Shown here: one piece after another, positions 17,921 to 32,668 of the stretch
Layout: each line of letters starts with the position of its first letter
How positions within the stretch are numbered: the stretch's first letter is position 1
Assembly (NCBI RefSeq): GCF_025399835.1
Contig: NZ_JAODVR010000001.1
Coordinates: 1,984,001 to 2,048,000, forward strand
Source: Haloarchaeobius sp. HME9146
GTDB taxonomy: Archaea; Halobacteriota; Halobacteria; Halobacteriales; Natrialbaceae
Direction of reading: 5' to 3'
Length of the DNA: 64,000 nucleotides
The notes under the pieces: generated by a model
Database searches by the model: none
The model's input: the letters and a program-made list of their open reading frames with translations, nothing else
Told to the model about the DNA's origin: nothing
Position numbers and translations under genes: made by a program

Positions 17921-18820
17921 ATGACTCGGGCCGGGACACGCCAGTTGTCTGCACTCTGGGGGATGTCCCGACCGTCCCAGCTTGCACTCATCCTCGTGGT
18001 GTATGCCCTCGGTGTCGCGATGGCGGCGGCCCGGGGGTGGACAGTCGACTCGATGGCCGTGCTCGTCGGCGGTGGTGCCCTGCTGCCGACCGCGGCCAGC
18101 ATCCACTACGTCAACGAGTACGCCGACCACGAGACCGATGCACTGACCGAACGGACACGCTTCTCCGGCGGGAGTGGTGCCCTGGCGCGCACCGGCCTGT
18201 CGCCGCGACTCGCACTCCACGCCGCGGTCGCGAGTCTCACCGTCGGAACGGCCGTGACCGTCGCCGGGTTCGCGACGGGGCTGTTGCCACCGGTTCCACT
18301 CGTGCTCCTCATGGCCATCGCGGTAATCGGGTGGGCCTACTCGGTCGGCCCCGCACTCGCCTGGAACGGCCTCGGCGAGGTGACGAACGCGGTCCTCGGT
18401 GGCCTCGTCTTGCCGCTCTACGGGTTCGCGGTCGTCGGGGCTGACGTGGATGCGAGGGCGGTCCTCGCGGTGCTCCCGTTCGCCATCTACGTGTTCACGA
18501 ATCTGCTGGCGACCCAGTGGCCGGACAGGGACGCGGACGCCACCGTCGGGAAGCGGACGCTACCGACGCGCTGGTCTCCCCACCGACTCCGGCGGGCGTA
18601 CCTCGCGAGCGCGACGCTCTCGCTGGGGTCGCTGGCGGTGCTCCCGTTCCTCGGCCTCCTGCCGCCGACCGTCGGCTGGTCGAGTCTGGTCCTCGTTCCC
18701 GTCGCCGTCCTCGCGGCCCAGCGGTTCACCGTCGTCCGGTCGCCGTTCCCGACCGTGGCAGTGATGGTCGCCATGGCTGTTATCCAGTTGCTCGCGTGGC
18801 TGCGACTGGCGTTCTGGTGA
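17921..18820 (+). CDS. UbiA-family prenyltransferase (substrate unknown)
   Basis: A protein of about 299 aa with eight or nine TM helices. The two Asp-rich motifs of UbiA enzymes are present: NEYADHETDALTE near residues 67-79 (NxxxDxxxD) and WPDRDADATVGKRTLP near 203-218. It probably transfers a prenyl chain to an aromatic or other acceptor in the membrane. It differs from the more canonical GGGP-type enzyme at 39036. I chose ATG 17921, about 30 nt after a TATA-like TTTAGG; a GTG at 17888 would add 11 residues. It is divergent from the winged-helix regulator. Confidence 0.88.
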   Translation: MTRAGTRQLSALWGMSRPSQLALILVVYALGVAMAAARGWTVDSMAVLVGGGALLPTAASIHYVNEYADHETDALTERTRFSGGSGALARTGLSPRLALHAAVASLTVGTAVTVAGFATGLLPPVPLVLLMAIAVIGWAYSVGPALAWNGLGEVTNAVLGGLVLPLYGFAVVGADVDARAVLAVLPFAIYVFTNLLATQWPDRDADATVGKRTLPTRWSPHRLRRAYLASATLSLGSLAVLPFLGLLPPTVGWSSLVLVPVAVLAAQRFTVVRSPFPTVAVMVAMAVIQLLAWLRLAFW

Positions 18821-18879
18821 CCGAGCGCCCCCGTTCGGGGGTCAACGTTTTTACTGACCGGGGCAGATACCCCAACAGG

Positions 18880-19452
18880 ATGTCAACGGACCTGCCAGAC
18901 GAGTTGCTGGATATCGACGTCGAGAACCCGGAGGACGAGCCCGAACGCGAGATCCAGAGCGACCGCTCCCCCGAGAACGAACCGGACGAAGTCGAACGGT
19001 TCGTCGTGTTTCGAATCGGCGAGCAGCGCCTCGCGGTCAGCGTGGACGCCGTAAAGAGTATCGTGAAGGTGAAAGAGTGGACGCGGGTCCCGCGGACCTC
19101 GCCAGCCATCGACGGCATCATGGACCTCCGCGGGGAGATCACCGCGGTCATCGAACCGCGTGTCCACTTCACCGTCGAGCAGGAACCGTCGGGACTGAAC
19201 CGCCAGCGTATCATCGTGTTCGACCGTGCCTCGGACAAACAGGGCGTCGGTATCCGTGTCGACGACGTCATGGGGGTCGAACTGGTTCCCCTCCGCTCCA
19301 TCGTCCCGAGCGAGCACGCCGAGGACGAGGCTGGCGAGCACCCACTCGTGACCGCGGTCATCTACCACGAGGAGGATGGTCAGGTCGTCGACACGATGGG
19401 GTTGCTGGACATCAAAGGACTCATACAGGCGTCCGGGCAAGGAGCCCAGTGA
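18880..19452 (+). CDS. cheW: Chemotaxis coupling protein CheW
   Basis: A 190-aa protein that bridges transducers and CheA. An acidic N-terminal extension of about 40 residues (Asp/Glu-rich) precedes the CheW SH3-like core: RFVVFRIGEQRLAVSVDAVK, the IDGIMDLRGEITAVIEPRVH signature, and VGIRVDDVMGVELVPLRSIV. A TATA-like GTTTTTA lies about 30 nt before the ATG, fitting a leaderless mRNA. It heads the chemotaxis block, 127 nt before cheY. Confidence 0.95.
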   Translation: MSTDLPDELLDIDVENPEDEPEREIQSDRSPENEPDEVERFVVFRIGEQRLAVSVDAVKSIVKVKEWTRVPRTSPAIDGIMDLRGEITAVIEPRVHFTVEQEPSGLNRQRIIVFDRASDKQGVGIRVDDVMGVELVPLRSIVPSEHAEDEAGEHPLVTAVIYHEEDGQVVDTMGLLDIKGLIQASGQGAQ

Positions 19453-19579: not shown

Positions 19580-19942
19580 ATGTCGACAGGGGTGCTCATC
19601 GTGGACGACTCTCATTTTATGCGGAACCTCCTCAGGCAGATTCTGGAGGACGAGTACGATATCGTAGGAGAGGCGTCCAACGGGGCCGAAGCGGTCAAAC
19701 TGTACAAAGAAGAGAATCCGGACATCGTGATGATGGACATCGTGATGCCGAAATGTAACGGTATCAAGGCGACAGCCGCCATCAAGAAGCTGGACCCGAG
19801 TTCACGTGTCATCATGTGCACATCGGTCGGCCAGCGCGAGAAGATGAAGCTCGCGGTCAAAGCCGGTGCCGATGGCTACGTGACCAAACCATTCGAAGAA
19901 CCCAGCGTTCGCAAAGCGCTGAAAGACGTCGTCCCTGCATGA
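19580..19942 (+). CDS. cheY: Chemotaxis response regulator CheY
   Basis: A 120-aa stand-alone receiver domain. The acidic pocket is VDD (residues 8-10), the phospho-acceptor is D53 in IVMMDIVMPKCNG, and the switch Thr and Lys appear in MCTSVGQREK and YVTKPFEE (Lys near 103). In archaea phospho-CheY acts through CheF on the archaellum motor. A TATA-like CATTTAT near 19534 gives a short leader, and a TTATC-N6-GATAA inverted repeat lies just upstream (19507-19522). The stop overlaps the cheB start (ATGA). Confidence 0.95.
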   Translation: MSTGVLIVDDSHFMRNLLRQILEDEYDIVGEASNGAEAVKLYKEENPDIVMMDIVMPKCNGIKATAAIKKLDPSSRVIMCTSVGQREKMKLAVKAGADGYVTKPFEEPSVRKALKDVVPA

Positions 19943-21045
19943 CGAGCGTGCTGGTTGTCGACGATTCGCAGTTCATGCGAACGGTCATCGGCAACATCCT
20001 CGCGGACAACGGGTACGAGGTCTACAGCGCCAGCAACGGCAAGAAAGCAGTAGCAGCGGTCGCCGAACACGACCCCGACATCGTCACGATGGACGTCCAG
20101 ATGCCCGGCATGAACGGCATCGACGCCGTCACCGAGATCATGGCGACGAACCCCACCCCTATCCTCATGCTCAGCGCACACACGAGCAAGGGTGCAGACG
20201 AGACGTTCGAGGCACTCGATAAGGGCGCGGTCGACTTCCTCGCCAAACCGAGCGGCGAGGTGTCGCCGAACATCGCGAGCCTCGCGGATCGGCTCGTGGA
20301 GAAGGTCCGGGCGGTCGAAGGTGTCGACGCGACCTCGATGACCGAGCCCCGCGCCACAGCCACCGCGGCGGCCGGGTCCACGGACGAGGGCGCGTGGCCC
20401 ACCCACGACACGGGTGGCGACAGCGAGACGACGGCCAGCGGGCCGTACGTCAAGCATCCGACCATCGTCATCGGCGCATCGACGGGCGGTCCGAAGATCG
20501 TCGAACAGATCGTCACGAGCCTCCCGGTCGCCCTCGGCGCGAAGGTGCTGGTCGTCCAGCACATGCCCGCGTCGTTCACCGACCGCCTCGCCGCCCGCCT
20601 CGACAGCCTGTCGAACTACGACGTCTACGAAGCGACCGACGGGCTCCGTCTGCGTGACGGCGACATCGCCATCGCACGTGGGGACTACCACATGGAGGTG
20701 GTCTCGAACGTGGCCGGGAACGTTCGCATCCGGCTCACGCAGGAGGAGCGCCGCCACGGCGTCCGTCCCGCCATCGACGTGACCATGGAGACGGCAGCCG
20801 AGCGCGTCTCGGACCCACTCTGTGGCGTCACGCTCACCGGGATGGGCAAGGACGGCGCGGCCGGCATCGCGGCCATCAAGGAAGCTGGCGGCGCGACCAT
20901 CGCACAGGACGAAGCATCGAGCCCCGTCTTCGGTATCCCGAAGCAGGCTATCGAGACCGGGTGTGTCGACCAGGTGCTCTCGGCGACGGACATCCCCGAG
21001 GGCATCTGTTCCGTATTCAGCCAGGAGGCACAGAGCCATGGATGA
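19939..21045 (+). CDS. cheB: Protein-glutamate methylesterase/deamidase CheB
   Basis: A 368-aa protein with a receiver domain (residues 1-120; D52 in TMDVQMPGMNG) and a C-terminal methylesterase. The catalytic Ser is in VIGASTGGPKIVEQI (near 180), the His in VQHMPASFTDRLAARL and the Asp in TGMGKDGAAG. It removes methyl groups from transducers and deamidates them. The linker (about 125-165) is Ala/Thr/Asp-rich. It overlaps cheY by 4 nt and cheA by 8 nt, indicating an operon. Confidence 0.96.
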   Translation: MTSVLVVDDSQFMRTVIGNILADNGYEVYSASNGKKAVAAVAEHDPDIVTMDVQMPGMNGIDAVTEIMATNPTPILMLSAHTSKGADETFEALDKGAVDFLAKPSGEVSPNIASLADRLVEKVRAVEGVDATSMTEPRATATAAAGSTDEGAWPTHDTGGDSETTASGPYVKHPTIVIGASTGGPKIVEQIVTSLPVALGAKVLVVQHMPASFTDRLAARLDSLSNYDVYEATDGLRLRDGDIAIARGDYHMEVVSNVAGNVRIRLTQEERRHGVRPAIDVTMETAAERVSDPLCGVTLTGMGKDGAAGIAAIKEAGGATIAQDEASSPVFGIPKQAIETGCVDQVLSATDIPEGICSVFSQEAQSHG

Positions 21046-24000
21046 GTACCTCAGGGACTTCGTTCAGGAGTCCGAAGAGAACATCACGGAACTGAACAAC
21101 GCGCTCCTCGAGCTCGAGCGCTCCCCCGACGACGACGAGGCGATGGGCCGCATCTTCCGGATGGCTCACACCCTCAAAGGAAACGCGGGTGCCATGGGGT
21201 TCGAGGATGCATCGAACCTCGCACACGCGATAGAGGACCTCCTCGAAGCTGTCCGGTCCGGACAGATCGAGGTCACGCCGGAGCTCATGGACGTGATATT
21301 CGGCGGCGTCGACGAACTCGAGACGATGCTGGACGACGTCCGCGCCTACGGTGAGATCCGGACGGATGCGTCCGAGACCATCGAAACCCTCCGGGAGGTC
21401 AAGGAGGCCGAGACGGGTATCCCGACGATCACGGACCCGGACGATGCGGCACTCGACGAGGCGGTCGAGGCCGCGAGAGACCTCACGGACGAGAACCACG
21501 ACGTCTACCACGTCAGACTCGCCATCGAGGAGAACGACGAGCGACAGAACGGCCGACTGGTCGTGAAGGCGCTCGCAGACGCGTTCGACCTCCTCGGCAC
21601 CGTCCCCGAGGAGGACACGCTCGCCGCGGGCGAGTACGACGGTACCCTCGACGCGGTGTTCGGCAGCGCCGTCGGCGAGGCGGCCATCTCTGCCGCACTC
21701 GAACCCGTCGACGCGGTCGCGGACGACCGCATCACGGAGGTGACCGAGCGCTACGAGGCGTCACGCGTCGAGGAAGGCGTCATCGAGGACGAGTTCGACG
21801 ACCTCTTCGAGGAGGACCCGGGCTCGGACATCGACTCCTCGGCCGCACAGGACATGTCCGTCGACGACCTCCTCTCGGAGTTCGACGAGTACGACGACCT
21901 CGACGCCATGGTCGAGGAGATGGACGACGTCTCCGGGTTCGACGACCTGGGCGACGCCGGCTCCTTCGACGACATCGACTTCGGCGACGACCTCGCCGAC
22001 GACGGTGACAGCGTCGCGGAACCCGCTGGCGAAGCGGGCGGCGACGTCGAGGAACCCGACGAGCCCGAGACCGCCGCCGAACCCGACCCAGCGCCATCCG
22101 AAGACCCCGACGAGGAGGTCGACGATGCGGCTGCGACCTTCGCGGAACTCAAACAGGAGGTCGACCCGGTCGGTTTCGACGAACTGCAGGACGAACTCGC
22201 CGAACTGGAGTTCGACGAGTACTCCGACGAGGAGGAGGTCGGCTTCGACGAACTCCTCGGAGACGACTTCGAGGAGCGAGACGACGACTTCTTCTCGCAG
22301 GGCGAGTCCGCGGTCAGCAGTGGCCAGGACGAGGTCAGCATGGCGGACCTCGTCGGCGACGACGAGGTCTCCGGGTTCGAGGATGCCGAAGACGAGTCCG
22401 ACGAGGACCTCGACCTTGGTGAGGACCTGGACCTCGACGAGGAGTTCGGCGAAGCGGTGGACGATTCGGCGGACGAAGCGGTCGATGCGGCCGACAGCAT
22501 CGACGCAGACGCCGATGAGTCCAGCGACTCCCCGGCCGAGGCGGACGCGGACGAGCCGGCTGTCGAAGCCGACGCGCCCGCAGATGTCGAGGTCGACCTC
22601 GGGTTCGAGGAGTCGGACGACGACCTCGGGTTCGAGGACGCAGGTACCGACTCAGAATTCGACGAGGTCGAGGCTGCGCCCGAGTCCGAGGACGTCGACA
22701 CCGAGTTCGACGACGTCGACACCGAATCCGGATTCGACGAGGTCGATACCACGACCGAGCCCGAGGACGCGACTGTCGGCTTCGATGACGCGGCATCGAG
22801 CGACGAGTTCGACGACGATATCGAGACCGACTTCGATACGGACGAATCCACCGAGACCGCCGACGAGGCCGCAACGGTGAACACGGCTGAAGCGTCCGCC
22901 ACCGAGGCAGACGTGGACGCCGAGGTTGCGGCGGACGCTGACGTTGCGGCGGACGACGACGTGGACGCGGTCGACGATTCCGCGGCCACCGACGAGTTCG
23001 CCGACGCCGACGACTCGGCCGAGGTGGCGGACTCCGCCGAGGAGCCCAAACCCGCAACCACTGCAGACACCGACGACGAGACGGACGACTTCGGCAGCTT
23101 CGACGGTGCTGACGACTTCGGTTCCGGCTCGGTCGGCGGCGCCGCCTTCGACGACGACCTCGGCGACGACTTCGAACTCGACACTGCGGACCCCTCGGAG
23201 ACCGCCGCCGCAGCCGCCGAGGCCGAATCGGTCGACGAGCCCGAGGACGACGACCTGACGGACGAGGAATCCGACCTCGACGAGGGCGTCGCGCTCGGTG
23301 ACGAGTACGTGGACCTTGACCCGGCGACCCCGGCGGATGGGGACACCGAAGCCGAGGCCTCGGCGGAATCCGACGAGGCGGACACCGCGACACCGACCGA
23401 CGACGAGGACCTTTCGCCCCTCGAGCGCGCCCGTGCCCGTTCGGACCTCGACCTCGACGACGTCGAGGTCGGCGAGTTCGAACTCGACGAAGCGGAGGCA
23501 CAGGCGAGCACCGAGACGACGGTCGAGACCGGTGATTTCGACGCGATTGGAAGCAGCGATTTCGACTCGGGTACCGACAGTGTCGCCGACTCCGGTAGCT
23601 TCGGTGGGCTGGACGACTCGGGTCTCGACTACGGCGACTTCGACGAACCCCCAGCCGACTCGACGGCAGACGAAGACGGCGGGGACGAGCCCGACGACAC
23701 CGCGCCGAGCGGCCCGGTCGTCGACGGCTCGGAGTACGAGGTCGATATCCAGACCCTCGGCGACGAGGACGACGAAGCCGACTCGGAGGGCGAGATACAG
23801 TCCATCCGCGTCGACGTCGAGCAGGTCGACCGCCTGCTGAACCTCGTCGAGGGGCTGGTCACCAGCCGCGTTCGCCTGCGCCGCACCGTCGAGGAGGGGG
23901 CCGACCCCGCCGAACTCGACGACGAACTGGACGAGCTGGAGGACCTCACCGGTGAACTTCAGGACACCGTGATGGACGTCCGGCTCGTGCCGGTGAAGAT

Positions 24001-24928
24001 GGTCGTGAACACGCTCCCGCGCGTGGTCCGCGACATCTCCCGCGAACAGGACAAGCAGGTCGCGTTCGAGATGGAGGGTGAGTCGGTCGAGGTCGACCGC
24101 TCCATCCTCGACCAGATCTCGGACCCGCTGGTCCACATCGTTCGCAACGCGGTCGACCACGGTATCGAATCGCCCGACGAGCGCGAGGAACTCGACAAGC
24201 CCACCGAAGGGCAGGTCACCTTGCGAGTCGAACGCGCCCGCGACCAGGTCGTCATCGAAGTCGAAGACGACGGTCGCGGGCTCGACCCTGACCGCCTCCG
24301 CGAGGAGGCCGTCGAGGAGGGCATCCTCACCGAGGCGGAAGCAGCGGAGCTCCCCGACTCGGAGGCGTACGACCTCATCTTCCACCCCGGGCTGTCGACG
24401 GCGTCGGAGGTTACCGACGTCTCCGGCCGCGGTGTGGGGATGGACGTCGTCAAGAGCACCGTCAACGACCTCGACGGCACGGTGACCGTCGAGTCGGAGC
24501 AGGGCGAAGGAACCACCATCCGGATGCTGCTCCCCGTCACCGTCGCTATCGCGGACGTCCTGTTCGTGGAGTCCGGTGACGAGGAGTTCGGCGTGCCGGT
24601 CAAGGTCGTGCGCGACATCGGCCCTGCGGTCGACGTGCGTGAGGAGGACGGACAGGAGGTCATCGTCGACGGCGACGAGACGCTCCCGCTTGTCCGCCTG
24701 AACGAAGCCCTCGGGACGCCCGGGACCCCCCGTAACGGCACGGGGATGTACCTGCGCATCCGGAGCGGCGTCAGACCGCTCGCGATCCACTGCGACGAGG
24801 TTCGCGGGCAACAGGAGGTCGTCGTCAAGCCCTTCGAGGGCGTACTCGGCGGCATCCCCGGCCTGAGCGGGGCGACGGTGCTCGGCGAAGGTGAAGTCGT
24901 GAACATCCTGGATGTGAAGACACTATGA
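21038..24928 (+). CDS. cheA: Chemotaxis histidine kinase CheA with a giant acidic linker (1296 aa)
   Basis: About twice the usual length. P1 (Hpt) has MAHTLKGNAGAMGF with phospho-acceptor H44. A P2-like CheY-binding domain covers about 152-245. Residues about 246-917 are a low-complexity Asp/Glu/Ala/Ser linker with short recurring units such as VGFDEL, DLGFED and TEFDDVDTES. The catalytic core then starts: P3 dimerisation helices (DVEQVDRLLNLVEGLVTSR), P4 ATPase (HIVRNAVDHGIESPDER N-box, EDDGRGLDP, SGRGVGMDVV) and a P5 CheW-like domain to the end. A strong AGGAGG at 21023-21028 supports the ATG at 21038, which overlaps cheB. No frameshift is needed and codon use in the linker matches the neighbours, so the insert looks native. 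Confidence 0.96.
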   Translation: MDEYLRDFVQESEENITELNNALLELERSPDDDEAMGRIFRMAHTLKGNAGAMGFEDASNLAHAIEDLLEAVRSGQIEVTPELMDVIFGGVDELETMLDDVRAYGEIRTDASETIETLREVKEAETGIPTITDPDDAALDEAVEAARDLTDENHDVYHVRLAIEENDERQNGRLVVKALADAFDLLGTVPEEDTLAAGEYDGTLDAVFGSAVGEAAISAALEPVDAVADDRITEVTERYEASRVEEGVIEDEFDDLFEEDPGSDIDSSAAQDMSVDDLLSEFDEYDDLDAMVEEMDDVSGFDDLGDAGSFDDIDFGDDLADDGDSVAEPAGEAGGDVEEPDEPETAAEPDPAPSEDPDEEVDDAAATFAELKQEVDPVGFDELQDELAELEFDEYSDEEEVGFDELLGDDFEERDDDFFSQGESAVSSGQDEVSMADLVGDDEVSGFEDAEDESDEDLDLGEDLDLDEEFGEAVDDSADEAVDAADSIDADADESSDSPAEADADEPAVEADAPADVEVDLGFEESDDDLGFEDAGTDSEFDEVEAAPESEDVDTEFDDVDTESGFDEVDTTTEPEDATVGFDDAASSDEFDDDIETDFDTDESTETADEAATVNTAEASATEADVDAEVAADADVAADDDVDAVDDSAATDEFADADDSAEVADSAEEPKPATTADTDDETDDFGSFDGADDFGSGSVGGAAFDDDLGDDFELDTADPSETAAAAAEAESVDEPEDDDLTDEESDLDEGVALGDEYVDLDPATPADGDTEAEASAESDEADTATPTDDEDLSPLERARARSDLDLDDVEVGEFELDEAEAQASTETTVETGDFDAIGSSDFDSGTDSVADSGSFGGLDDSGLDYGDFDEPPADSTADEDGGDEPDDTAPSGPVVDGSEYEVDIQTLGDEDDEADSEGEIQSIRVDVEQVDRLLNLVEGLVTSRVRLRRTVEEGADPAELDDELDELEDLTGELQDTVMDVRLVPVKMVVNTLPRVVRDISREQDKQVAFEMEGESVEVDRSILDQISDPLVHIVRNAVDHGIESPDEREELDKPTEGQVTLRVERARDQVVIEVEDDGRGLDPDRLREEAVEEGILTEAEAAELPDSEAYDLIFHPGLSTASEVTDVSGRGVGMDVVKSTVNDLDGTVTVESEQGEGTTIRMLLPVTVAIADVLFVESGDEEFGVPVKVVRDIGPAVDVREEDGQEVIVDGDETLPLVRLNEALGTPGTPRNGTGMYLRIRSGVRPLAIHCDEVRGQQEVVVKPFEGVLGGIPGLSGATVLGEGEVVNILDVKTL

Positions 24929-24953: not shown

Positions 24954-25559
24954 ATGAGTTTGATGGTCGACATTCGGAAGCTGAGTTTCATCAACGAGAT
25001 GGCGAAGGTCGGGACCAACGGGGTCGCCGACAACATGAGTAAACTGACAGGCGAGGATGCCCGGATGGAGGTGACGAAGACGAACTTCATCGACATCCAG
25101 GACATCAAGAAGCAACTGGACGCCGGCAAACGTGTCGGCGTCAGGGTGCGCCTGATGGAGCCCCCGCACGGGCACATCCTCATCCTGTTCCCCGAGTCGA
25201 GCGCGAAGAAGATCACCGCGCTCATGCTCTCGGACATGGTCGACGACATGTCCCAGGTATCGGGCGAGATGGCTCGCTCGGCCGTCGAAGAGCTCGGCAA
25301 CATGATGGCGTCGGGCTTCATCGACGGCTGGGCGGACGTGCTCGGCCGCACCATCGACATCGCGACACCGCAACTGGTGTACGCACCGGCCGGTGAGATC
25401 GTCGAACGGACCGCAGGCCTCGGCGGCGAGGACCTCGCGCTGTTCTTCGACTCCAACCTGACGGTGCCGAGTTACGACATCAACGCCGAGATCTACGCCT
25501 TCCCGAACCTCGAAGAGTTCGTGGAGATGGTCAACAATATCGAAGCCAGGCCGACATGA
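24954..25559 (+). CDS. cheC: CheC-family CheY-P phosphatase (single domain)
   Basis: A 201-aa protein of the CheC/CheX/FliY family. The second phosphatase motif is intact: SAVEELGNMMASGFIDGWAD (ExxN). The first, near residue 14, reads NEMAKVGTNG, so the Asn position is Lys and that half-site is probably inactive. An AGGAGG at 24943-24948 sits 5 nt before the ATG, an unusually strong ribosome site. It follows cheA by 25 nt and overlaps the next gene by 4 nt (ATGA). Confidence 0.92.
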   Translation: MSLMVDIRKLSFINEMAKVGTNGVADNMSKLTGEDARMEVTKTNFIDIQDIKKQLDAGKRVGVRVRLMEPPHGHILILFPESSAKKITALMLSDMVDDMSQVSGEMARSAVEELGNMMASGFIDGWADVLGRTIDIATPQLVYAPAGEIVERTAGLGGEDLALFFDSNLTVPSYDINAEIYAFPNLEEFVEMVNNIEARPT

Positions 25560-26800
25560 AACTGGACATCACCGCACTCGGGACCTTCTACGACATGGCT
25601 CGGGAAGGTGCCGGCCTCGCCGCGGGTCGCCTGACGCGCATGACCGACGTGGACACCCGCGTCGGCGTCACGAAGCTGAACTTCATGCGCGGCTCGGAGA
25701 TCCGGACGGAGTTTGAGGACGACGTGCCCAAGGTGGGCATCCGCGTCGAACTCTCCGGCGGGCTGGACGGGCACTCGATAATCATCTTCGAGCGCGACGC
25801 GGCCCTCAGCATCGTCAAGACGCTGGTCGGTGAATCCGACGCCGACGAGTTCAACGACATGAACCGCTCGGCGATGACCGAGGTCGGCCAGATCATGAAC
25901 GCCGGGTTCATCGACGGCTGGGCGGACGTGCTCGGGACCGTCATCGACGTGTCGACGCCGGAGTTCGTCGAGGGGACGACCGCGGAGCCGTTCCTCGGCG
26001 ACCTCGAGGCAGCACCCGACGAGGGCGACCTCGCGCTGTTGTTCCAGAGCCAGATCGAGGCGGTCGACACGGAGATCGGGTTCAAGCACTACCTGTTCCC
26101 CGAGCGGGAGTCGATGGCGGACATCCTCGAACAGCACGGCGACCCCGACAGCCGGGGTATCGAGTACGACAAGCTCGCCGGCTTCGACGAGATGGCCCAG
26201 CAAGGGGCGAAAGAGGTCGCCTCGAACATCACGACGCTCACCGGCATCGAGACGAGCGTGAAGATCCGCCGCCTGAAGTTCGCCTCGCTGGAGGCGATTC
26301 CCCAGGAGATCGACGACGAGATGCTCGTCGGCGTGGCGCACGAACTCGACGGCACCCCCTCCGGGTACCTGCTGTTCCTGTTCGACGAGCGCTCGGCCCG
26401 CGAGGTCGTCGAGGCGACCGTGCCGAACCCGCCGGACGACGAGTTCGGTGACCTCGGCAAGAGCGCCATCAAGGAGCTCGGGAACATCATGGCCTCGGGC
26501 TTCATCGACGGCTGGGCGAACGTGCTGGACACGACCATCGACCACTCGCCGCCGCAGTACATCCACGACTTCGGGGCGGCGGTCATCGACCCGGTCATCA
26601 TCCAGCTCGGCGAGAACCAGGACTTCGCGTTCGTCTTCGACACGGTCATCAAGGCCGACGACCGCGAGTTCGACTGTTCCATCTACGCCATCCCGGACGA
26701 GGAGGACCTCGAACGGGCGCTCAACAACCTCGACATCGAGCGTATCGCCGACGCCGAGACGAAAGCAGACTTCCCGATAGATGAAGTGGAGAACGCATGA
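25556..26800 (+). CDS. cheC: Two-domain CheC-family protein
   Basis: A 414-aa tandem fusion of two CheC domains (about 1-200 and 205-405). Each has the long helix pair and the GFIDGWADVL/GFIDGWANVL signature. Of four possible ExxN phosphatase motifs, only the last (AIKELGNIMASGF) is intact; the others read YDMAR, TEVGQ and DEMAQ. The first domain may therefore be a binding module, perhaps for CheD. It overlaps both neighbours by 4 nt (ATGA), so it lies in the che operon. Confidence 0.9.
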   Translation: MKLDITALGTFYDMAREGAGLAAGRLTRMTDVDTRVGVTKLNFMRGSEIRTEFEDDVPKVGIRVELSGGLDGHSIIIFERDAALSIVKTLVGESDADEFNDMNRSAMTEVGQIMNAGFIDGWADVLGTVIDVSTPEFVEGTTAEPFLGDLEAAPDEGDLALLFQSQIEAVDTEIGFKHYLFPERESMADILEQHGDPDSRGIEYDKLAGFDEMAQQGAKEVASNITTLTGIETSVKIRRLKFASLEAIPQEIDDEMLVGVAHELDGTPSGYLLFLFDERSAREVVEATVPNPPDDEFGDLGKSAIKELGNIMASGFIDGWANVLDTTIDHSPPQYIHDFGAAVIDPVIIQLGENQDFAFVFDTVIKADDREFDCSIYAIPDEEDLERALNNLDIERIADAETKADFPIDEVENA

Positions 26801-27318
26801 AGACGTACGGAAGTGAACCAGGCGCGCCGGAGCCGGTCCAGGTCGGTATCTCGGAGTTCGTCGTCAGGGGCAAGGAGTCTGAGGACACGCTCAAGTCTTA
26901 CGGACTCGGCTCCTGTCTGGCAATCGCCCTCTACGACCCTGACACCCGAATCGGCGGACTGGCACACGTCATGCTCCCCGACGGTGACGCCGCCGACGGG
27001 GCCGACACGCAGCCCGGCAAGTACGCCGATACGGCCATCCGCGCGATGCTCCGCCGGATGGTCGAGAAGGGTGCGGCGTACACCTCGGTCGAAGCGAAGA
27101 TAGCGGGCGGGAGCGACATGTTCCAGTTCGAGTCCTTCGGTGAGGGCGTCGGCAAGCGGAACGTCGCCGCGGCCAAGGAGGAACTCGAGAAGCTCGGCGT
27201 CCCCATCATCGCGGAGGACGTCGGCGGCCAGCGCGGCCGCACCGTCGAGTTCGACGTGCAGACCGGGACGCTCCGGATCCGGACTGCAGACAGCGAGCAC
27301 GCGGTGGAGGAACTGTGA
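26797..27318 (+). CDS. cheD: Chemoreceptor glutamine deamidase CheD
   Basis: A 173-aa protein. The catalytic Cys is in SYGLGSCLAIALYDP (near residue 38) and the His in GGLAHVMLPDG (near 55). The C-terminal half carries the KIAGGSDMF and NVAAAKEELEKLGVPI signatures. It deamidates transducer Gln residues and binds CheC. It overlaps the double CheC by 4 nt and cheR by 4 nt (GTGA). Confidence 0.95.
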   Translation: MKTYGSEPGAPEPVQVGISEFVVRGKESEDTLKSYGLGSCLAIALYDPDTRIGGLAHVMLPDGDAADGADTQPGKYADTAIRAMLRRMVEKGAAYTSVEAKIAGGSDMFQFESFGEGVGKRNVAAAKEELEKLGVPIIAEDVGGQRGRTVEFDVQTGTLRIRTADSEHAVEEL

Positions 27319-28118
27319 CGGAGGAGGAGTCTTTCCTCCGAGTCGCCACCTACGTCGAAGACCAGATCGGGTTCGCGACCAGTCATTACAACGACAGCTA
27401 CCTGAAGCGGCGGCTCTCCTCGCGGATGCGCCGGACCGGCGCGGCCGACTACGACGAATACCTCGACATCCTCAAGGATGACGGGGATGAGCCCAAGGAA
27501 CTGCTCGACGCGCTCTCGATCAACGTCACGGGGTTCTTCCGGAACCCGGACGTCTGGGAGGGAATCCGGTCGGTGTTGCGTGACCTCTCCGCCGAGCAAG
27601 ACCGGGTCCACGTCTGGTCCGCCGCCTGTGCCGACGGTCGCGAACCGTACTCGCTGGCGATGCTCGCCCTCGACGACCCGCGGGTCGATGCCGAGAAGTT
27701 CCACATCTACGGGACCGACATCAACGACGAGGCCCTCCGGACGGCACAGGAGGGCGTCTACCGCAGCACCCGGACCGTCGATATCGAGGACCAGCTCGGC
27801 TTCCTCTCGAACTTCCACGCCTACGTGGACAAACAGGAGAACCGCTTCGAGGTGACCGACCGGGTGAAGCGCAAGGTCACCTTCGCCAAGCACGACCTCA
27901 TCAACGACCGCGCGAAGTCCGGCTTCGACCTGGTCATCTGCCGGAACCTGTTCATCTACATCGACAACGAGTACAAACAGCCCATCCTCGAGACCATCGC
28001 GCGGTCACTGCGCCCCGACGGCTATCTCGTCATCGGGAAGGCAGAGACCATCCCGCCACAGCTCAAGTCGGCGTTCTCCGTCCTCGACGGTCGCCTCCGA
28101 ATCTACCAGCGGGAGTAA
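27315..28118 (+). CDS. cheR: Chemotaxis methyltransferase CheR
   Basis: A 267-aa SAM-dependent enzyme that methylates transducer Glu residues. It has the N-terminal helical domain (YVEDQIGFATSHYNDSYLKR), then SINVTGFFRNPDVWE, the SAM motif VWSAACADGREPYSLAM and ICRNLFIYIDNEYKQ, ending with a beta-subdomain. In the SAM motif the usual CSTGEE is CADGRE, common in halophiles. It starts with GTG overlapping the cheD stop and is the last gene of the plus-strand che run. Confidence 0.95.
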   Translation: MTEEESFLRVATYVEDQIGFATSHYNDSYLKRRLSSRMRRTGAADYDEYLDILKDDGDEPKELLDALSINVTGFFRNPDVWEGIRSVLRDLSAEQDRVHVWSAACADGREPYSLAMLALDDPRVDAEKFHIYGTDINDEALRTAQEGVYRSTRTVDIEDQLGFLSNFHAYVDKQENRFEVTDRVKRKVTFAKHDLINDRAKSGFDLVICRNLFIYIDNEYKQPILETIARSLRPDGYLVIGKAETIPPQLKSAFSVLDGRLRIYQRE

Positions 28119-28256
28119 CTCCCGTCCCTGTCCGTTCTTCGGTCGCCTCGTCTCACCAGCGATGCGGCCGCTCTCACATTCAAACTCGTTGCCAGGCGCT
28201 CGCGACGCTCAGCGGGTAGACCGTACAAGAACCAAAGTGACCGAGAGAAGACGGCG

Positions 28257-31200
28257 TTACTCGTCGTCGTTCGGCTCGGACTGGGCAAACGAGAACATGT
28301 CGTCCTCGTTGACGTCCTCCTCGTCGACGTCCAGGTCTTCCTCGTCGGACTCGTCACCGAAGTCGATGTCCTCCATGCCGGGGACCTCCTTCGTCTCAGC
28401 ATCGTCCGGTTCGTCCTCACCGGACTGTTCGACCGCCTCGTCTTCGAAGTCGAGCGCTTCGTCGAGCTCGCGGTCTATCTCTTCGGTGTCCTGCGCGTCG
28501 GCCGCTTCGGCGTCCGCACCGAAGGAGAGGCCGGTCGTCGGCTCGGCATCGGACTCGTCGTCGGCCTCGGCGGACTCTGCAGCAGCGTCCGCCGGGTCGT
28601 CCTCGGCCAGATCGTCATCGACCGGGTCGGCCACGACTGGGTCGTCCTCGACGGCCGAGTCGTCGGTCTCCCAGCCGGCTGGGGCCTCTTCGGTGTCCCA
28701 GCTCGCACCGGTCGGCTCGTCGGGCTCCCACTCGGGGTCGCCCGAGTGGTCCCCCTCCGCCGGCTCGTCTGCATCCCAGTCGGCGTCAGCCGTGTCGTCG
28801 TCGAAGCCGTCGTCGGCTGCCCAGGAGCCACTCGTGTCGGTGGTCGTGTCCCAGGCATCGCCGGTGGTGGACTCATCGAGGTCCGCGTCGGTCTCGACCG
28901 CATCGGCGTCGACGGTCTCCCAGTCATCGCCCGACTCCTCGAGTTCGGTGTCGGCGACTGGCTCGGTGTCGGCTTCCAGCTCCGCTTCGGGAGCCGGTTC
29001 GGCCTCGATGGCCTCGTCTGGTCCGTCCAGTTCGGTGGCCGGTTCCGCATCGTCCTCGACGGCCGGTTCTGAGTCGACGCTCGATTCATCATCGTCGGCC
29101 GGTTCGTTGTCGACAGCCGGCTCGGTTTCGGTGGCCAGTTCGTCGTCGACAGCCGGCTCGGTTTCGGTGGCCAGTTCCTCCTCGACAGCCGGCTCGGAAT
29201 CGACTGCCGGCTCGGCAGCGTCGGTCTCGTCGCCACCCTCGAACGGCTCGAATCCTTCGAACTCGTCGTCGGCATCTGAACCGAGGTCGATGTCTGCTTC
29301 GTAGTCCACCGGCTCGTCAGTGTCTTCCAGGTCCGGCTCGTCGGGCTCGTCCGAAACGACCGGTTCCCCGGCGACGACCGCGTCGTCTTCCGAATCGTCG
29401 TCCACGGGGGGTGCCGGCTCGGCTTCAGGGGCTGGCTCGGCTTCGAGTGCCGATTCAGCGTCCGCGTCCACGTCCTCGGCGATGTCGCCACCGAGTTCGA
29501 TGTCGGTGTCGAGGTCGTCCTCGGTCTCCGCGGCGTCCGCTTCTTCGGGCTCTTCCTCGCCGAACGCGATGCCCGGCGAGTCGTCTTCCTCCTCGTCGCT
29601 CGACTCGAGCGATTCCGTGTCGGGTGCACCCAGCGGTTCTGGGTCTGCCTCGTCCGCCGGAATCGGGTCCGACTCGACCGGTTCCGCCTCGCCGGCGGCG
29701 TCGGCCGGTCCGTCGAGCGTCGGTGCTGCATCAGCGTCCTCGGTCGGCTCGTCCGCCGGCGTCGCGGCCGCATCGAGGCTGTACTCGTCCGGGTCGACGT
29801 CGTCGACGTCGTCGAGGTCGCCGAGTGCGTCGCCGTCACCCTCCTGCTCGATGGGCGAGAAGGTCCCGTCGTCGAGCGGCGCGAACTCCTCGTCCTCGGA
29901 GGCCGACCCTGCACCCGCGTCCGTGGTCGGCGTGGTCTCCTCGCCGAACGTCGCCGGCGAGCCGAGACCACCCTGGGAGTCGGACGGGGCTTCCATCGGT
30001 TCCTCGAGTTGCCGGTCGTCGTCGACGGCGTCGGTGTCGGTCTCGGTTTCGGGCTCCGGTTCGGCGGTGAAGTCCGAGTCGTCGAGGTCGAGGTCCGTAT
30101 CACCGGTGGTCAGTTCGCCGACTGCCTCCGCCGCGGCCTCGATGTCCTCGGGGTCACGCGTCTCCACGTCCTCGAAGAGCTCCTCGCCGGTACCGAACTC
30201 GTACTCGTCGTCCACATCCGTCTCGAAGCGGTCGAGTGCCTCGCTCAGGCGGGACGCCTGGTTCGCGAGGTCGCTCGCGGACTTGCTGACCTCGGTGAGC
30301 GCCGTGGTCTGTTCCTCTGCTGCTGCGGCGACGTTCTCTGCCTCCGCGGTCGTCTCCTCGGAGATGGTCGCTGCGTCGTCGACCATCGCGACGACCTCTT
30401 CGGTCGAGGCCGCCTGTTCCTCGGTCGCGGCCGAGATCTCCTGAACACCGGTGTTCGTCTCGGTCGCGTAGCCCGCAATCTCGTCGAGTGCGGTGACGGT
30501 CTCCTCGACGGCGTCGGTCGTCGCGGATATCTGTTCGCTCGCGCCCTCGACCGAGCGGACGGACTGGCGGGTCTTCGACTGGATGGTCTCGAGGCGCTTC
30601 TCGATGTCCTCGGCTGCGTCCTTCGTCTCCTCTGCCAGGTCCTTGACCTCCTGTGCGACGACGGAGAACCCTTCGCCGGAACTGCCCGAGCGTGCCGCCT
30701 CGATGTTGGCGTTCAGCGCGAGCATGTTCGTCTGCTCTGCGATCTCTGAGATGAAGTCGATCAGCTCGTCGATCTGCTCCATCTCGTTCTCGAGGTCACC
30801 CATCTGGTCGGTGACGACCTCACGGTTGTCCTCGAGTTCCTGCATCCGGTCGATTGCCTCCTGGGCCGCGTCACGACCACTGCGGCCGGTCTCTGCGGTC
30901 CGTTCTGCCAGGTCCGCCACCTCGTTCGAGGAGGATGCGATCTCCTCGATGGTGGTCGAGAGTCCGGACATCTCCTGACTGACCCGCTGGAGGCTGTCGT
31001 TCTGGCGGTCCGCACCGTCGGAAATCTCCTGGATGGATTCGGTCACCTGCTCGGAGGCGGAGCGGACCTCTTCGCTGGAGGCCGTAACCTCCTCGGAGGA
31101 GGTCGCGACCTCGTTCGCGAAGTTCTTGAGCTGGGCGGTGGTCTCCTCGATCTCGCCGATCATGTGGTTGAACTCGCGAGCGATGTCGGCCATCGCCTCG

Positions 31201-32483
31201 GACTCGGACTCGGCGTTCATCCGCTGGGTCATGTCCCCATCGGAGACGTGCTGCATCACGTCGCGGTACTCGTCGGCCTTGCGCTCGAGGTGGCGGTTCA
31301 TCTGCTCCGCCTCGGCCCGTGCGAGCTCTGCTTGCTCACGGGCGTCCCGTGCCTCCTGGATCTGTTCCCGGAGGGCGTCGCGCATCGAACCGAACCCGTT
31401 GTAGAGTCGGCCGATGTTGTCGATGCGGTGCGTCTCGAAGTCGACGTTGAGGTTGCCCTCCTCCATCTGGGTCGTCTTGGAGGTGAGGCGGTCGATGGCC
31501 GACGCAGTGTTGCGTCCGATGACCGTTCCGACGAGGACGATGAGCGTCATGCCGGCGAGCGTCGCGTAGAGGCCCCACTGACTCACGTCGTTAACGAAGC
31601 CGTAGACGTTCGAGGTGGGCGCACTCACGGTGACGACCATGTCGCGGCCTTCGACGTTGGCGTAACTCGTCACGTACTCGTCGTCGGCGTACTGGTCACC
31701 GACGGTGCTCGCGACCGGGCCGGGGGCCGAGCCGAACTGCTCGACGCCGGGACCCGTCTGGGAGAGCTGGTAGAAGTTGGCACCGGGGTACGCGTCGCCG
31801 GTGATGTTCGCGTTGTTCGAGAACACGATGTCGTTGTCGGACCCGAGAATCATCGTGGTCTCGCCGTCGTCGACGGCCATCGTCTGGCCGTAGTTCGTCA
31901 CGTCGACGGTGGTGACGATGACCTCACTGCCACTGCTCGCTTTGACCGGGTAGGCGTACGCCACGACGGTGGTTCCCTCGTGGTCCGTGTAGGAGCTGTA
32001 GACGACACCGGAATCGCCGTCGACCGCGGTCTTGCTCGCGAGTTCACTCGCCCAGGGCGTCTGGAGCTGGCCGAGGGCTGCGTCTTCCATCTGGTTCGCC
32101 GTGGTGGCGGTGACCGTGTTGGATTGCAGCTTCACGTAGTACATGTCCCGGACGCCACGTTCGAACTGTAACACCTGCGTCCGGCCCTCGAGAAGGGCGT
32201 CGATCTCGGATTCGTTTCCGGATTCTACGTCGCTACTCCAGGCGACGTTCTGTGTGATGACGATGTTCCGTTCGTCCCATTGGCGCAAGTTCCGTGCTTC
32301 TTGCACTGCACGGTCTTCGAGTCTATCGTTGACGCTGTTCTCTACTTCCTCTGTGATCTGGCCAGTCGCGACGAACCCTACCGCCCCGACCGCCAGGCCC
32401 ATTATGAGGAGCGCGATACCGAATTTCAGCGCATAACTTCTCCGAATAAAGTTTGGTATGAGTCGACGAAGCGGGCCCAGCAT
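28257..32483 (-). CDS. Methyl-accepting chemotaxis transducer with a ~650-aa acidic C-terminal tail (1408 aa)
   Basis: From ATG 32483: TM1 at about 20-42, an extracellular Cache-like sensor (about 43-300), TM2 near 300-322, two HAMP segments (about 320-450), then the methyl-accepting coiled coil with hairpin tip EIAEQTNMLALNANIEAARS near residues 575-595. After about residue 757 comes a very long Asp/Glu/Pro/Ala/Ser tail with degenerate repeats (for example ATETEPAVDDEL), ending in an acidic, Phe-containing peptide. The signalling part alone is normal length. The tail is conserved in frame and has no stop or frameshift. It faces the che operon (139 nt between cheR and its stop), so it is a likely dedicated input. 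The ligand is unknown. Confidence 0.94.
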   Translation of the reverse strand: MLGPLRRLIPNFIRRSYALKFGIALLIMGLAVGAVGFVATGQITEEVENSVNDRLEDRAVQEARNLRQWDERNIVITQNVAWSSDVESGNESEIDALLEGRTQVLQFERGVRDMYYVKLQSNTVTATTANQMEDAALGQLQTPWASELASKTAVDGDSGVVYSSYTDHEGTTVVAYAYPVKASSGSEVIVTTVDVTNYGQTMAVDDGETTMILGSDNDIVFSNNANITGDAYPGANFYQLSQTGPGVEQFGSAPGPVASTVGDQYADDEYVTSYANVEGRDMVVTVSAPTSNVYGFVNDVSQWGLYATLAGMTLIVLVGTVIGRNTASAIDRLTSKTTQMEEGNLNVDFETHRIDNIGRLYNGFGSMRDALREQIQEARDAREQAELARAEAEQMNRHLERKADEYRDVMQHVSDGDMTQRMNAESESEAMADIAREFNHMIGEIEETTAQLKNFANEVATSSEEVTASSEEVRSASEQVTESIQEISDGADRQNDSLQRVSQEMSGLSTTIEEIASSSNEVADLAERTAETGRSGRDAAQEAIDRMQELEDNREVVTDQMGDLENEMEQIDELIDFISEIAEQTNMLALNANIEAARSGSSGEGFSVVAQEVKDLAEETKDAAEDIEKRLETIQSKTRQSVRSVEGASEQISATTDAVEETVTALDEIAGYATETNTGVQEISAATEEQAASTEEVVAMVDDAATISEETTAEAENVAAAAEEQTTALTEVSKSASDLANQASRLSEALDRFETDVDDEYEFGTGEELFEDVETRDPEDIEAAAEAVGELTTGDTDLDLDDSDFTAEPEPETETDTDAVDDDRQLEEPMEAPSDSQGGLGSPATFGEETTPTTDAGAGSASEDEEFAPLDDGTFSPIEQEGDGDALGDLDDVDDVDPDEYSLDAAATPADEPTEDADAAPTLDGPADAAGEAEPVESDPIPADEADPEPLGAPDTESLESSDEEEDDSPGIAFGEEEPEEADAAETEDDLDTDIELGGDIAEDVDADAESALEAEPAPEAEPAPPVDDDSEDDAVVAGEPVVSDEPDEPDLEDTDEPVDYEADIDLGSDADDEFEGFEPFEGGDETDAAEPAVDSEPAVEEELATETEPAVDDELATETEPAVDNEPADDDESSVDSEPAVEDDAEPATELDGPDEAIEAEPAPEAELEADTEPVADTELEESGDDWETVDADAVETDADLDESTTGDAWDTTTDTSGSWAADDGFDDDTADADWDADEPAEGDHSGDPEWEPDEPTGASWDTEEAPAGWETDDSAVEDDPVVADPVDDDLAEDDPADAAAESAEADDESDAEPTTGLSFGADAEAADAQDTEEIDRELDEALDFEDEAVEQSGEDEPDDAETKEVPGMEDIDFGDESDEEDLDVDEEDVNEDDMFSFAQSEPNDDE

Positions 32484-32668
32484 ATGCTCGAAACGGTGGG
32501 TACCAGAATATAAAACAACACCGGAGATTATCACGAATGAAAACCGGGTAAACCGGCGACTTTACCCGTGCCTCTTTAAGTTGACGGCCGTTTTCGCTTT
32601 CGGCAATTCTGTCTGGCTCGCTTCGAGTGTGATAAAGTACAAGCGGGTCACCGACGAACGAGGTGACG

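Follow-up and report, generated by a model that had tools for sequence, protein, structure and literature searches.

The window, by which we mean the whole stretch of 64,000 nucleotides of Haloarchaeobius sp. HME9146 analysed here, comes from a haloarchaeal genome of 4.19 Mb that encodes eight MCPs. It carries a chemotaxis cluster with the order cheW, cheB, cheA, cheC, cheC-cheC, cheD and cheR, at whose end a transducer gene is placed convergently with cheR. The cheW ORF (18517..19452, + strand), whose start is probably set too early, encodes a CheW domain at residues 162-304; cheB (19816..21045, +) comprises a receiver and a methylesterase; and the cheA ORF (20822..24928, +) has its probable start at an ATG at ~21038 (MDEYLRDF). 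These are followed by a single-domain cheC (24954..25559, +), a cheC with two CheC domains (25556..26800, +), cheD (26797..27318, +; PF03975, 6.7e-33) and cheR (27315..28118, +). The same convergence of transducer and cheR is found in three genera of Natrialbaceae, and in a second family (f7) the long-tail receptor also adjoins cheR.

The transducer ORF (28257..32534, −) has 1425 codons, with its probable true start at Met18 (ATG at 32483, MLGPLRRLIPNFIRRSYALKFG), since a related receptor (L059) starts at the corresponding Met. Its HAMP domain (residues 339-390; 31365..31520, −; Pfam PF00672, 4.5e-9) and its MCP signalling domain (residues 556-723; 30366..30869, −; Pfam PF00015, MCPsignal, 2.5e-40), the latter forming a hairpin with methylation-type sites, place the protein among the haloarchaeal transducers (MCP/Htr); a site scan gave methylation-consensus matches at residues 478, 527, 702/703 and 737/738. 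Beyond the coiled coil, the protein continues into an acidic tail that is predicted to be disordered (residues ~776-1425; 28260..30209, −). Counted from residue ~781 to the C-terminus, this tail comprises 645 aa (D 22%, E 19%, A 14%, P 8.5%), with 266 Asp/Glu (41%) vs 4 Lys/Arg and a net charge near −260. A first-pass annotation had placed an acidic tail of about 650 residues behind the HAMP and signalling domains, which is borne out in both size and position. It had also described Glu/Asp/Pro/Ala/Ser repeats; here the compositional bias stands, but tandem units do not, because the tail contains one sizeable internal repeat only, of 36 bp (12 aa) in 2.8 copies (ELATETEPAVDD; 29097..29197, −). 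A frameshift or annotation artefact is ruled out as the origin of the tail, because GC at third codon positions keeps a coding-like pattern (0.82 in the tail vs 0.84 in the transducer body) and 40 orthologues carry the tail in frame. On the opposite (+) strand, the long open frames at window positions 28162-29304 and 29320-30444 are a Ser-rich shadow of the Asp/Glu codons, with no evidence for genes.

When modelled with AlphaFold2 on the 40-orthologue alignment, the region past the coiled coil reaches a pLDDT of mostly 38-50 and is predicted to be unstructured, save for one short helix close to where the tail begins (residues 795-805, model residues 91-101; 30120..30152, −). In an MCP, the C-terminal helix folds back in the direction of the membrane; the tail therefore begins membrane-proximal, away from the CheA/CheW tip. 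For a chain of 645 residues, the calculated contour length is ~230 nm and the end-to-end distance, roughly estimated for a self-avoiding chain, ~25 nm, which should suffice to reach the signalling tip or many neighbouring receptors. The suggestion that the end of the tail would be far from the receptor tip thus needs correcting, as the length of the tail would allow its end to come near the tip or adjacent receptors; the combination of a long reach with a small hook would favour serving many receptors in common rather than a single one.

Relatives of the sensor part are present in 117 of the 125 genomes of Natrialbaceae (f1), many of them in frames of 900-1590 codons, and such receptors occur in Natrinema, Natronorubrum, Natrialba, Halovivax, Natribaculum and Halorubellus. 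Long-tailed homologues, whose absence the first-pass annotation had regarded as decisive against a role for the tail, are therefore nearly universal in the family. The transducer terminates in ...DVNEDDMFSFAQSEPNDDE, an acidic, Phe-containing peptide as originally described, and both the tail in frame and the terminal peptide are kept in all 40 orthologues translated, far beyond chance. The peptide DDMFSFAQSEPNDDE (residues 1411-1425; 28260..28304, −) contains the invariant core D-x-F-x-F (here DDMFSF; 28287-28301, −); all 40 orthologues end in D-[VM]-F-[STAR]-F, with the consensus D[VM]F[ST]FG. In the 40-row tail alignment, D708, F710 and F712 are the sole invariant columns past the coiled coil, and the codons of the peptide vary synonymously (GTG/GTC/GTA, TTC/TTT, GGN) with the residues constant. 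Elsewhere the tails hardly align, drifting freely in length (72-645 aa, all acidic, the present transducer being the longest and its sister species reaching 609) and in sequence. Natrinema-type tails (L017, L019, L021, L023 and relatives) share internal GITF and GAEEILGI motifs that are not found in the window tail, and in one genus (g10; L258, L259) the second Phe is replaced by Leu, giving the variant ends DDSETFSLDG and DEGETFSLDG.

Because a drifting, disordered linker ends in one invariant short peptide, the tail is very probably, as judged from sequence conservation, a tether with a docking motif. The tail might instead be a mere halophilic acidic extension, serving solubility or acting as an entropic bristle with no specific partner: haloarchaeal proteins are typically acidic in composition, and a free drift of length and sequence would be in line with such a role. 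However, invariant D, F and F residues and the single preferred aromatic spacing described below cannot arise from composition, and among the other receptors of the sampled genomes tails of <60 aa predominate, which makes this explanation very unlikely. The least probable reading is that the tail phase-separates or builds a matrix around the array. Its length and low complexity would suit such behaviour, as would a segment in which seven Trp are set among acidic residues (DDWETVD ... AGWETDD, two of them W-E-T; 28662..28928, −) in two species, but a net charge near −260 and orthologue tails as short as 72 aa speak against it; the peptide rather than the bulk of the tail is therefore argued to be the conserved function. 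The Trp stretch is confined to this species and its nearest relative among the 40 orthologues, so that it does not represent the conserved function of the tail, and DDWETVD and AGWETDD were on the same grounds discarded as NWETF tethers.

Related endings are not restricted to the orthologue group. In the same genome, three paralogues with tails of 36-53 residues end in DDTFEFGDH, DEFVFGDTDD... and AFEFANYPE..., and four other receptors are devoid of an aromatic-x-aromatic end. In Halobacterium salinarum, a genome identified by a 3.5-kb stretch with 100% identity to the DSM 3754 record, one of 17 receptors ends in SSFTWADSQ; a second Halobacterium shows FDWEQ, Haloferax FQFDR and FNFDR, and Halorubellus FEFGTGDDA. 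Among 158 unique receptor tails, [FWY]x[FWY] occurs within the last 30 aa in 96, vs 4 expected (maximum 10 in 300 shuffles), a figure that is not a haloarchaeal frequency, because the sample is enriched in Natrialbaceae. The contrast between spacings is independent of this enrichment: aromatic spacings of 0, 2, 3, 4 and 5 are at chance level in the same tails, including spacing 2, the bacterial W-x-x-F type (5/158 vs 3.5 expected). Receptors without a close sensor match still carry the ending in 36 of 94 cases (2.3 expected). The wider consensus is D-D-[VM]-F-[TS]-F-[GA], located at a median of six residues from the C-terminus and mostly 2-12 residues before it, and the ending switched state at least 20 times across a tree built from 183 receptors. 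One transducer tail (L105, genome G366; GPLGGGDGPFDEGPFGGGDEG...DWSFEEMLDPGE) has a Gly-rich instead of an acidic linker and a W-x-F end.

Two further associations were considered and dropped. The peptide is not a general haloarchaeal protein ending, as among 20 additional loci that match the strict DNA pattern, C-terminal copies in real genes lie on MCPs, the remaining copies being internal or in spurious frames. Likewise, raw counts of methylation-consensus matches per receptor are higher with the peptide than without it (5.25 vs 2.85), but the difference is not significant with independent pairs on the tree and vanishes when ancestry is controlled for, so that a link to the number of methylation sites was abandoned.

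Recruitment of another protein by the end of the tail, as had been proposed, is thus well supported at the sequence level by an invariant D-x-F-x-F whose fixed spacing recurs in less related receptors. Short conserved ends behind disordered linkers are common recruitment devices, and the recruited protein could in principle be a positioning or turnover factor, for instance a MinD/ParA-type partner acting on the polar array, instead of an adaptation enzyme. Haloarchaeal arrays are spatially organised (PMC6509185), in agreement with such a role. Yet several receptors of the same genome carry the peptide, short-tailed ones included, and others do not, whereas positioning would need few, so that a factor of this kind is distinctly unlikely to be the partner.

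A second acidic element of the cluster lies in CheA, where a mostly acidic region of 806 aa, including a weak P2, separates the Hpt from the dimerisation domain (about 21362-23779, +). Such CheA linkers hold conserved Phe motifs (SVDDLLSEFDEYDDLDAMVEE, GSFDD, VGFDELQDELxELEFDEY and VGFDELLG). Nearly every Natrialbaceae genome with a CheA encodes a long one, in a frame of about 1090-1590 codons, and long CheA is likewise present in the second family f7, vs frames of 646-874 aa in 12 genomes of five other families; among the genomes tested, long CheA is thus confined to the two families with a long-tail transducer. Many Natrialbaceae genomes (e.g. G041, G042 and G079) carry a second, short CheA of ~670-835 aa, 52-57% identical, which suggests a second chemosensory system.

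This distribution raises the possibility that the docking site of the peptide is part of the core array itself, namely CheA, CheW or a domain beside the CheA linker, and that tail and linker together form a disordered scaffold with two arms, spacing arrays and gathering clients. Long CheA and the strict peptide occur together in 97 Natrialbaceae genomes; 11 genomes of the family have long CheA without the strict form, and in the eight from which receptors were read, six show an F-x-F variant and two, from one genus, FSL. The one genus of the family with only short CheA lacks the strict peptide in all five genomes, and in the one genome whose receptors were all read, none of the 12 shows an aromatic-x-aromatic end. 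In addition, tail length and CheA linker length correlate with r = 0.96 over nine loci, which belong to related species and amount to few independent points, and the conserved Phe motifs of the linkers, as well as the pairing of long tail and long CheA in f7 against short CheA in the five other families, fit the same picture. On the other hand, aromatic-x-aromatic ends are also present in Halobacterium and Haloferax, and CheA is short in the Halobacterium genomes tested; moreover, direct binding between two acidic arms is improbable. Docking on the core array is therefore regarded as unlikely. A similarly low likelihood is given to the broader proposal that Natrialbaceae and the neighbouring family possess an array with two co-evolved disordered acidic arms, one being the D-x-F-x-F tail and the other a 560-800-aa CheA linker with Phe motifs, which would share CheB, CheD, CheC and CheY as clients and concentrate the adaptation machinery; if true, this would be a kind of scaffold not known from bacterial arrays.

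Overall, the reading that we favour, with a probability of roughly 0.55, is that the tail is a flexible, membrane-proximal tether bearing a C-terminal docking peptide for a soluble Che protein. According to this reading, the peptide would adopt an extended form with both Phe on one face and bind a soluble Che protein, which would thereby be concentrated around the methylation sites of this receptor and of those next to it; the capture radius would be set by the length of the tail. The chances that the client is an adaptation enzyme are about even; the likeliest candidates would be CheB or CheD, or else CheR via a non-bacterial site, all three being encoded in the adjacent cluster. Published pull-downs from H. 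salinarum give no guidance in this choice, since Htr12 alone was fished only by CheR and no contact of CheD with an Htr was observed (PMC3579733). Should this reading be correct, the two Phe codons would offer a precise target for studying how archaeal receptors recruit enzymes, and receptors whose tethers naturally range in length from tens of residues up to 645 would bear on how length sets adaptation, the more so as related peptides are present in Haloferax and Halobacterium, genera of genetic models. Tethering of adaptation enzymes had been reported as almost absent from archaea, and a differently spaced conserved peptide on many haloarchaeal receptors suggests that it exists there in another form.

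In the literature searched, no description of a DDMFSF-type docking peptide in haloarchaea was found, and known systems provide three points of comparison. For Bacillus subtilis and Thermotoga maritima, methylation is described to proceed on receptors that lack a pentapeptide (PMC2577667); these species resemble the window cluster in their CheC and CheD gene set and a short-loop CheR, but many haloarchaeal receptors, unlike theirs, carry a conserved C-terminal peptide. Outside chemotaxis, bacterial SSB has a disordered linker followed by a short acidic tip, which is conserved and serves to recruit many proteins (PMC7145534). The disordered linker and the short conserved acidic end are shared with the transducer, although protein and partners are different ones and the analogy concerns the working principle only.

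The closest comparison is with the NWETF pentapeptide of Tar and Tsr, which follows a linker of ~35 residues (PMC7390727) and is bound by CheR and CheB (PMC7390727; PMC8609364). Both systems present a short aromatic peptide with acidic flanks at the C-terminal side of an unstructured linker, and do so on some receptors only. However, the aromatics are spaced F-x-F here and W-x-x-F there; the peptide lies mostly 2-12 residues before the end, with neither x-W-x-x-F nor x-[FY]-x-x-[FY] at the very C-terminus; and the linkers of this orthologue group measure 72-645 aa. The survey that found the bacterial pentapeptide in 0 of 2,730 Halobacteriales receptors (PMC7390727) returned the zero to be expected, since the motif sought has W-x-x-F spacing. 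The binding site on CheR differs as well: the window CheR has Glu at the position of Salmonella Arg197 and a loop four residues shorter, and none of the 19 haloarchaeal CheRs aligned has the pentapeptide-binding loop of the beta-subdomain, which rules out CheR as a reader via the bacterial NWETF site. As spacing and CheR binding site both fail, the transducer falls outside the NWETF class. For CheB, no diagnostic sequence feature for pentapeptide binding is known (PMC7698151), and the protein binds the NWETF peptide more tightly when phosphorylated (PMC8609364). By analogy, the principle of the NWETF tether can hold here as well, possibly with another interface or another partner.
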